A stretch of 64,000 nt of DNA from Clostridiales bacterium. Its GTDB lineage: Bacteria > Bacillota > Clostridia > Oscillospirales > Oscillospiraceae. Positions 3,796 to 64,000 of the stretch are shown piece after piece; the first letter of the stretch is position 1; the number at the start of each line of letters is the position of its first letter. The translations under genes were made by a program, and so were the position numbers. Location: contig JAJPXB010000043.1 of NCBI GenBank assembly GCA_021205695.1, positions 34,300 to 98,299 on the forward strand, written 5' to 3'. The notes beneath the pieces were generated by a model. That model had not been told where the DNA came from and did no database searches. It was given only the letters and a program-made list of their open reading frames with translations.

Positions 3796-3913
3796 TTGTT
3801 GCCGGACGCATCGATTCTGCCCTCACGGGCCGGAGCGGGCGTCCGGTTCCCTTTGGCCCACGCAGGGGCGCCGATTCCTCTGCCAGCTGACCTATCGACC
3901 CGGACATCAGACA

Positions 3914-4136
3914 GGCACCCCCGGCTCATCGAGCCAGGGGTGCCTCAGCGTGTCAAAAATCCTTTTTGACACGCTGAGTACGATTTTTGAACTTTAGAAA
4001 AGTTCTAAAAATCGTTTTTCTTGCACGCGAGGGGGCTTTTTGCCCCCTCCTCCGCACCCCCGCTACTCTGTTGCGGGAGCCTCAAGCACTTTTTTGACAG
4101 TCTAAGGCACCCCCGGCTCGATGAGCCGGGGGTGCC
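3914..4136 (-). repeat. Copy 1 of a three-copy multi-hairpin element flanked by a locus-specific duplicated hairpin
   Basis: 160 bp core 3945-4104 between GGCACCCCCGGCTCATCGAGCCAGGGGTGCC (3914) and GGCACCCCCGGCTCGATGAGCCGGGGGTGCC (4106-4136). Confidence 0.9.
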
Positions 4137-33739: not shown

Positions 33740-34681
33740 ATGGCTGCTATTAGCGCAAAGCTGGTCAAGGAGCTCCGTGAGCTGACCGGCGTTGGTATGA
33801 TGAACTGCAAGCAGGCTCTGGTGGCCTGCGACGGCGACAAGGACAAGGCTATCGACTGGCTGCGGGAGAAGGGCCTGGCTGCCCAGACCAAGAAGGCCGG
33901 TAAGGTGGCCGCCGAGGGTGTGTCCTACGCACTGGTGGACGACAACGGCGTGGGCGTGGTGCTGGAGGTCAACTCTCAGACCGACTTCGTCGCCAAGAAC
34001 GACATCTTCCAGGCTTTCGTCAAGGACGTGGCTCTGGTGGTGGCACAGCAGAACCCCGCTGACGTGGAGGCACTGAAGGCCGCCACCTATCCCGGCACCG
34101 ACCGGACGGTGGACGCCGTCACCGCCGACAAGGTGCTGTCCATCGGCGAGAACATCCAAATCCGCCGCTTCGTCCGCTATGAGGGCGGTGTCAACGTCCC
34201 CTATGTCCACATGAACGGTAAGATCGGCGTCCTGGTCAACCTGGCCGTGGAGGGCATCGACAACACCGCCGCTGTGGTGGAGCTGGGCAAGGATCTGGCT
34301 ATGCAGATCGCCGCTATGAGCCCCACCTATGTCTCCTCTGACGAGATTCCCGCCGACGAGGTGGAGAAGGAGAAGGCTGTGCAGCTGGCCAAGGCCCTGG
34401 AAGAGGGCGCCGCCAACACCAAGCTCCCCGAGGCCAAGCGGCAGATGATCGCAGAGAACAAGGTCAAGGGCCGTATGAACAACTATTTCGCCGAGGTGTG
34501 CCTGCTCAACCAGGGCTACGTCAAGGAGAACAAGACCACCGTTGACCAGCACGTCAAGGCGGTCGCCAAGCAGCTGGGCGGCAAGATTACCGTGGTGAAG
34601 TTTACCCGCTTTGTCACCGGCGAGGGCATCGAGAAGAAGGAGGACGATTTCGCCGCAGAGGTCGCCTCCATGATCAAGTAA
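33740..34681 (+). CDS. tsf: Elongation factor Ts
   Basis: ISAKLVKELRELTGVGMMNCKQALVACDGDKDKAIDWLREKG. Confidence 0.98.
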   Translation: MAAISAKLVKELRELTGVGMMNCKQALVACDGDKDKAIDWLREKGLAAQTKKAGKVAAEGVSYALVDDNGVGVVLEVNSQTDFVAKNDIFQAFVKDVALVVAQQNPADVEALKAATYPGTDRTVDAVTADKVLSIGENIQIRRFVRYEGGVNVPYVHMNGKIGVLVNLAVEGIDNTAAVVELGKDLAMQIAAMSPTYVSSDEIPADEVEKEKAVQLAKALEEGAANTKLPEAKRQMIAENKVKGRMNNYFAEVCLLNQGYVKENKTTVDQHVKAVAKQLGGKITVVKFTRFVTGEGIEKKEDDFAAEVASMIK

Positions 34682-34722: not shown

Positions 34723-34950
34723 AAACGAACCCGGCTGTCATCAGTCGGGTTCGTTTTGGACTGCCATAAAAACGCCTGAGACGCCCGCAATAGAGCAGCG
34801 GGGGTGCGGAGGAGGGGGCGAAAAGCCCCCTTCGCGTGCAATAAAAAACGATTTTTAGAACTTTTCCAAAGTTCAAAAATCGTACTCAGCGTGTCAAAAA
34901 TCCTTTTTGACACGCTGAAACGAACCCGGCTCATCAGTCGGGTTCGTTTT
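34723..34950 (+). repeat. Copy 2 of the three-copy multi-hairpin element flanked by a locus-specific duplicated hairpin
   Basis: 162 bp core 34757-34918 between CGAACCCGGCTGTCATCAGTCGGGTTCG and CGAACCCGGCTCATCAGTCGGGTTCG. Confidence 0.9.
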
Positions 34951-55370: not shown

Positions 55371-55460
55371 AAAAACCGCACCTCCAGGCAGACAGCCCAG
55401 ACGGTCGGCTTTTTTCCTGCCATACTCCCTGTGGTTTCTCTCCACTTCCGTCAGTCATAT
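55371..55460 (-). promoter_or_regulatory. ZTP (pfl-type) riboswitch with terminator upstream of fhs
   Basis: Minus strand GACTGACGGAAGTGGAGAGAAACCACAGGGAGTATGGCAGGAAAAAAGCCGACCGTCTGGGC then GC-rich hairpin and TTTTTTT; folate gene context. Confidence 0.85.
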
Positions 55461-55470
55461 GGCTACTGTT

Positions 55471-56911: not shown

Positions 56912-57121
56912 GCCCGGCAGCCACGGCTGCCGGGCGTAGACTGTCAAAAAAGCGCTTGAGACTCCTGCAACAGAGTAGCGGGGGTGCGGAGGAGGGGGCA
57001 AAAAGCCCCCTTCGCGTGCAATAAAAAAACGATTTTTAGAACTTTCCTAAAGTTCAAAAATCGTACTCAGCGTGTCAAAAAGGATTTTCGACACGCTGAG
57101 TCCGGCAGCCATGGCTGCCGG
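56912..57121 (+). repeat. Copy 3 of the three-copy multi-hairpin element flanked by a locus-specific duplicated hairpin
   Basis: 163 bp core 56937-57099 between CCGGCAGCCACGGCTGCCGG and CCGGCAGCCATGGCTGCCGG. Confidence 0.9.
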
Positions 57122-57128
57122 GGCGGCG

Positions 57129-57632
57129 TCAATATTCACTGATCCGGATAGAGCCGTCGTCCGACTGCTTCTCGATGGCCCGGATGGTCAGGGGATAGCT
57201 GTAGCTGTCGTCGACACGGACGGTGACGGTGTCCCCTACCCGATGGCCCAGAAGGGCCTTTCCCGCCGGGGATACGTTGCTGATCCGGTTGCGGAGGGCG
57301 TCCTCCTTCACGGTGGTGACGATTTGAAACACGTCCTCCTCCTCGTCTTCGTCGAACCATACCGTCACCTTGTCAAACAGCCCCACCTCGTCGTCGGCGG
57401 AGCGGTCCTCAATGACATGAGCTGTCTCGATCATGCGCTCCAGATAGCGGATACGGCTCTCGTTTTTGTTCTTGTCCCGCTTGGCGGCCTTATGCTCAAA
57501 ATTCTCGCTCAGATCTCCAAAGGCCCGGGCGGTCTTGACCTCCTCCAAAAGCTGGGGGCGCAGGGTGATGCGCCGGTAATCCAGCTCCCTGCGCATCTGC
57601 TCCAGGTCGTTGGCGGTCAGTTGGTCGTGCAT
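57129..57632 (-). CDS. GreA/GreB-family transcription elongation factor
   Basis: Coiled-coil EVKTARAFGDLSENFEHKAAKRDKNKNESRIRYLERMIETAHVI; SPAGKALLGHRVGDTVTV. Confidence 0.88.
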   Translation of the reverse strand: MHDQLTANDLEQMRRELDYRRITLRPQLLEEVKTARAFGDLSENFEHKAAKRDKNKNESRIRYLERMIETAHVIEDRSADDEVGLFDKVTVWFDEDEEEDVFQIVTTVKEDALRNRISNVSPAGKALLGHRVGDTVTVRVDDSYSYPLTIRAIEKQSDDGSIRISEY

Positions 57633-63540: not shown

Positions 63541-64000
63541 AGGGCCGATACACTGAGGTTCTCTCCCACCTCATGCACGAAGGGGGCAGAGGGAACGACG
63601 ATTGCGTCGGACGGGGTGTTCAGAGTCTATATAGCAACAATCTGCTTTTACTGCTCTTATTGACCGTTTCACAAGCTTGCGCACCAGCGCCTCTTATAAA
63701 ATTTGAGCGCTCACACTCAATCAATAAGGCGGGAAATCCCGCCAAGGCGGGGAGATCCCGCCGTCCGGCAGTGGACCCGGCTGTCCGTATGGCCTCGACC
63801 CCCGAGGGAGTGGTCCGAATGATTGCTGAAAGAGACTGAAAATCCCGTGTTCTTTCAAACTGCGAATAGTATACCACAGAATGTCGGAATCTGTCAATCA
63901 GAGAAATGGGATCGTTAGGACAACACTTCCCCAGATATTTGAAGTTCTGTTCATTTGTCAATGATGTGAGACCAGGGAAAGCGAAAGCGTTTGTTCGTTA

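Follow-up and report, generated by a model that had tools for sequence, protein, structure and literature searches.

Terminator hairpins duplicated around a short non-autonomous element of Oscillospiraceae, a MITE very probably moved by an IS1182-family transposase

The window, a 64,000-nucleotide stretch from a Clostridiales bacterium of the gut family Oscillospiraceae (GenBank assembly GCA_021205695.1), contains three copies of a short element, each set between two hairpins. The element is very probably a MITE that an IS1182-family transposase moves into terminator hairpins, the whole hairpin being duplicated in the process. A MITE-like element with this target and this duplication was one of two readings offered in a preliminary description of the DNA, and it is now backed by genome-wide copies, empty sites and autonomous relatives. 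Most DDE transposons generate a target duplication of fixed length that is determined by the enzyme. In the present elements the length follows the secondary structure of the target, which constitutes natural evidence for a transposase that acts on extruded hairpins and joins both 5' feet. The three copies, their hairpins and the target genes are arranged as follows:

3913..3944, no strand assigned: left hairpin of the duplicated pair at copy 1, AGGCACCCCCGGCTCATCGAGCCAGGGGTGCC
3945..4104, minus strand: MITE copy 1, ends TCAGCGTGTCAAAAA / TTTTTTGACAGTCTA, 94% identical to copy 3
4105..4136, no strand assigned: right hairpin at copy 1, with flipped loop, AGGCACCCCCGGCTCGATGAGCCGGGGGTGCC, 30 nt beyond the gpmI stop codon
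4167..5687, minus strand: gpmI, phosphoglycerate mutase (TIGR01307), whose own terminator is the target of copy 1
33740..34681, plus strand: tsf, elongation factor Ts (TIGR00116), whose own terminator is the target of copy 2
34724..34756, no strand assigned: left hairpin at copy 2, 3' of tsf
34757..34918, plus strand: MITE copy 2, 90% identity in the genome search with the core
34919..34949, no strand assigned: right hairpin at copy 2, carrying a T-tract
56912..56935, no strand assigned: left hairpin at copy 3, read from the sequence
56937..57099, plus strand: MITE copy 3, found in the genome search with the core
57102..57121, no strand assigned: right hairpin at copy 3, 3' of greA
57129..57632, minus strand: greA-like gene (best model NF001263, 136 bits, just below the cut-off of 145), whose own terminator is the target of copy 3

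The core boundaries of all three copies agree with those first described, approximately so for copies 2 and 3, while copy 1 lies in reverse orientation. An identification of the gene at 33740-34681 as etfA was dropped, as its TIGR00116 match identifies it as tsf.

The core is 160-163 bp long, non-coding and present in multiple copies at unrelated loci. Its terminal inverted repeats are imperfect and read [TCG]AGACTGTCAAAAA / TCAGCGTGTCAAAAA, also written AGACTGTCAAAAA / CAGCGTGTCAAAAA. The proposed search of this genome and its relatives located the core at 18 distinct places in the source genome (2.24 Mb, 82 contigs), about 12 of them full-length at 90% identity or more. Among the 40 relatives searched, the congener G005 contains about 20 copies and three further genomes (G023, G018 and G008) a single copy each; the core was not found in the remaining 35 of the 40. 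Diverged copies are spread over 45 genomes and 24 genera of the family (401 genomes from 106 genera sampled), the full-length ones being 72-78% identical, and one genome (G136) has 52 matches to the central core motif. The core is without a match in plasmid and phage collections. Of 301 family genomes, 56 contain the exact 14-mer end CAGCGTGTCAAAAA, and its reversed control is nearly absent. Such ends often lie against a hairpin (G131, G174, G281, G298, G335, G256, G295, G211 and others; L258-L284). They bracket differing internal sequences, and therefore represent several further MITE families with common ends.

Both flanks were read for 55 elements, comprising 29 MITEs and 26 related IS1182 elements. 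A whole-hairpin duplication of 18-41 bp is present in 39 of these 55 (20 MITEs and 19 IS1182 elements), and 23 of the duplications are letter-perfect. Examples among the MITEs are L002 (37/37 bp), L046 (31/31), L040 (30/30), L052 (29/29) and L042 (27/27). Flanks of the same locus mostly reach alignment scores of 19-41, against a mean of 8 and a 99th percentile of 13 for flanks of different loci; the few high cross-locus scores probably reflect orthologous or duplicate records. This left-right comparison, suggested at the outset, confirms that the flanking hairpins are nearly identical inside each locus and unrelated across loci. The element ends lie at most 1 nt from the foot of the hairpin, that is, its outermost pair, in 46 of 58 MITE ends and 44 of 51 IS ends; random positions gave 5.9% and shuffled flanks 4.5%. 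The arrangement is not a product of chance. The remaining quarter or so of the copies have no matching pair and show a one-sided hairpin, duplications of 5-10 bp or two different hairpins. As the duplication length tracks the hairpin, a fixed stagger on linear DNA is hard to reconcile with these data.

Relatives that are 92-96% identical across the neighbouring genes reveal the state of the three window sites in the absence of the element. One hairpin and no element is found at the tsf site in G007 and G023, at the greA site in G023, G021, G008 and G007, and at the gpmI site in G007, G005 and G023. The gpmI site of G005 is thus empty despite the many element copies elsewhere in that genome. 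The single hairpin in these relatives indicates that the second hairpin came with the insertion, and it excludes pre-existing tandem hairpins at the gpmI, tsf and greA loci. A tandem pair in element-free relatives had been named as the observation that would speak against hairpin duplication, and at these loci a single hairpin was encountered each time, never a pair. It is accordingly scarcely conceivable that tandem terminators existed beforehand and received the element between them, with hardly any duplication or none. A few loci with two different hairpins (L009, L059 and L227) would fit such a history, but the hairpins within a locus are otherwise near-identical or identical, and in the complete genome of strain CCNA10, recombination between copies accounts for the mismatched flanks. 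There, L216 has on its right the hairpin that L223 has on its left, and the left hairpin of L198 recurs on the right of L220; recombination between copies can therefore yield different hairpins on the two sides of one element. In the source genome, the terminator hairpin CATCRGAGGCCCTTTCGCTGGAAAGGGCCTCCGATG forms both the right flank of an IS1182 copy (L058, contig 38) and the left flank of L070 on contig 35, which suggests recombination between copies here as well. On contig 35, L070 and L018 together make up a MITE/IS1182 relic, with a tRNA-like sequence next to it.

The orientation of the duplicated hairpin was a second point of debate. The pair at copy 1 (L007) has 30 matches when aligned as an inverted repeat and 28 when aligned directly, a difference that comes down to a single mismatch and the flipping of a 3-nt loop. 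From this pair, the preliminary description had concluded that an inverted duplication fits better than a simple target-site duplication. The better inverted fit of copy 1 stands, without being decisive; as a rule the claim is not supported, since direct alignment gives the better score for 38 of 39 duplications. An inverted duplication would arise if a cruciform were resolved to hairpin-capped ends and the element joined between them, leaving the second hairpin in either orientation. Besides copy 1, flipped loops in three further elements (L182, L201 and L290) could be cited for this route. In these three, however, the flip is confined to the inner loop, and beyond the stem the bases keep the direct register, pointing to loop inversion within a direct duplication, which accounts for all four cases including copy 1. 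The route via hairpin-capped ends is thus improbable, and at copy 1 the hairpin was probably duplicated directly, with its loop flipped.

A shared transposase was looked for, as had been recommended, and a search with IS1182-like transposases gave 75 named loci, mostly in Oscillospiraceae, with about 12 in CCNA10. The enzyme belongs to the IS1182 family according to the curated NCBI model NF033551 (cut-off 270 bits), which scores 386 bits for L182 of Pseudoflavonifractor sp. An44 and 352 bits for L058; its Pfam domains are DUF772 and DDE_Tnp_1_6. The IS copy L182 recurs with the same flanks in a family relative (L072 in G105). The source genome has three IS1182-like matches, of which L058 is the only long reading frame; it encodes 439 amino acids, as against 484 in an intact relative, the N-terminal 45 or so residues apparently missing through a frameshift. 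The ends of the IS1182 elements read CAGnnTGTCAAA and are set against hairpins, and 16 of their 19 whole-hairpin duplications are letter-perfect over 18-41 bp. Complete elements that combine these ends with the hairpin footprint include L183, L189, L200, L206, L225 and L077. Autonomous IS1182 elements thus leave the same footprint, which is therefore a trait of the transposase group and not of the MITE only.

MITE and IS1182 ends have AG..TGTCAAAAA in common at the same offset. The recommended search yielded IS1182 elements with the same footprint and end motif, but none with the exact CAGCGTGTCAAAAA ends: in the fetched loci, no IS1182 gene lies near that exact end or near the core motif. Nor is the MITE core visibly derived by internal deletion from these IS1182 elements, and a direct autonomous parent is not among them. 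The link between the two rests on their common ends and their identical, unusual footprint, and on this comparison of sequences the case for mobilisation of the MITE in trans by an IS1182-type transposase is strong but not proven.

The second reading in the preliminary description, a modular RNA that acquires copies of local terminators, has become much less likely. The core has several conserved hairpins and folds strongly as single-stranded DNA (z = -8.2), and its right end is itself a hairpin, composed of the terminal repeat and an inverted copy of that repeat. A central block, GAGCAGCGGGGG...GCAAAAAGCCCCCTTCGCGTKCAAT, is nearly invariant across genera, in contrast to the remainder of the core, where identity falls to about 72-78%. 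The pairing of hairpin II is kept while its sequence changes, with an own-arm similarity of 0.89 versus 0.32 to the arms of other elements; the arms were compared directly, because the 3' arm of this hairpin is misaligned in the raw alignment and RNAalifold does not pick it up there. Both the central block and this covariation across genera would suit a regulatory element or structured RNA, not a transposon, that gained local terminator copies. Against such an origin, copies lie beside unrelated genes and close relatives have empty sites, the ends match those of IS1182 elements, and transposase-bearing IS elements make the same footprint. In Rfam, no family reaches its gathering score over the element, and a relaxed threshold gave only matches far below threshold. 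Moreover, the arms of a DNA palindrome can remain matched without any RNA function: palindrome correction during replication could hold them together in the absence of selection. An RNA that is not a transposon is therefore a very doubtful explanation, and the MITE remains the preferred one.

The retention of the central block and the covarying hairpin across genera (56937-57099, L277, L287-L295) exceeds what a decaying MITE would need. That the core, beyond being selfish DNA, has a function as a structured nucleic acid is a tentative idea with perhaps a modest chance of being right. If so, its structure may work in RNA form, as a bidirectional termination insulator rendering the insertion harmless, or as the folded DNA on which the transposase acts.

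A mechanism that would account for the preferred reading, a MITE moved by an IS1182-family transposase, can be outlined from precedent. For the IS1182 transposase, Wan et al. (2017) proposed action on an extruded cruciform, and that paper distinguishes three outcomes: joining at the 3' feet, by which the hairpin is lost as in IS1272; joining at the 5' feet, by which the whole stem-loop is duplicated (pathway b, Fig 13); and joining at the loop, by which the loop is duplicated (pathway c, Fig 13) (PMC5678879). In Oscillospiraceae, a DDE transposase of the CAGnnTGTCAAA-end group of the IS1182 family would mobilise the non-autonomous element of about 160 bp in trans. The enzyme would recognise its target by shape and not by sequence: a hairpin extruded as a cruciform, in most cases an intrinsic terminator. 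Strand joining would link both 3' ends of the element to the hairpin's 5' feet, one on each strand, and gap repair would leave one complete hairpin at either side of the element. The target-site duplication would then be the hairpin itself, its length of 18-41 bp dictated by the target. Template switching in the palindrome is a plausible source of the occasional loop flips, which may occur during repair or afterwards, and mismatched flanks may result from recombination between element copies. The gene retains a terminator after the insertion, which suggests how the element can spread safely.

Hairpin-targeting IS1182 elements are already known, and the earlier statement that no described family has such an architecture was only partly right. 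The studied member, IS1272/TnSha1 of staphylococci, likewise has an IS1182 transposase and targets hairpin structures without a common sequence, often terminators, but it removes or replaces the hairpin without duplicating the target, whereas here the whole hairpin is duplicated (PMC5678879, PMC4923244). The IS1272-type outcome is not seen in the 39 elements with both hairpins. ISCbo5, an IS1182-family element of Clostridium group III, was already noted as bracketed by hairpins: in the accessible portion of its description, all sites but one are hairpin-forming inverted repeats at gene ends, the hairpin sites are called likely transcription stop signals, and a surrounding hairpin is mentioned (PMC3098183). 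Unlike the present element, ISCbo5 is an autonomous IS of another clade, and that portion describes neither a hairpin duplication proven by empty sites nor a MITE (PMC3098183). The bacterial MITEs BOX, RUP, SPRITE, QMITE and others are equally short, non-coding, intergenic, hairpin-forming and multi-copy, but none is reported, in the part of the survey available, to duplicate a whole terminator hairpin or is tied to IS1182 (PMC10969869). Pathway b of Wan et al. predicts exactly the whole-stem-loop duplication found here; in the text available, pathways b and c appear as possible alternatives without natural examples (PMC5678879). The elements described here supply natural examples of this product, which until then had been depicted as no more than a hypothetical counterpart to the hairpin replacement of IS1272.

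The open literature, taken without subscription papers and ISfinder, reports no IS1182-derived MITE with whole-hairpin duplication. As far as this literature shows, the new aspects are the MITE family, the empty-site evidence for duplication of a whole hairpin as target, and the generality of this outcome in one transposase group. The many exact duplications in Oscillospiraceae provide ready targets and transposases for tests of structure-guided insertion.

Some loci deviate from the usual insertion at the foot of the hairpin. At L326, a MITE copy seemingly lies within a hairpin loop, with the arms GTTATAAAAGGG / CCCTTTTATAAC on either side. Short duplications inside hairpins are found at this locus (TGTAT, 5 bp), at L044 (GGCTTA) and at L047 (AAAAGAAATC), and these tentatively resemble pathway c of Wan et al. 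Elsewhere in the window, Rfam identifies a ZMP/ZTP riboswitch (RF01750, 57.4 bits) at 55388-55468 on the minus strand, and a match to SpF59_sRNA (RF02440), a family described from Streptococcus, at 63765-63816 on the minus strand (63.9 bits, cut-off 37.2).
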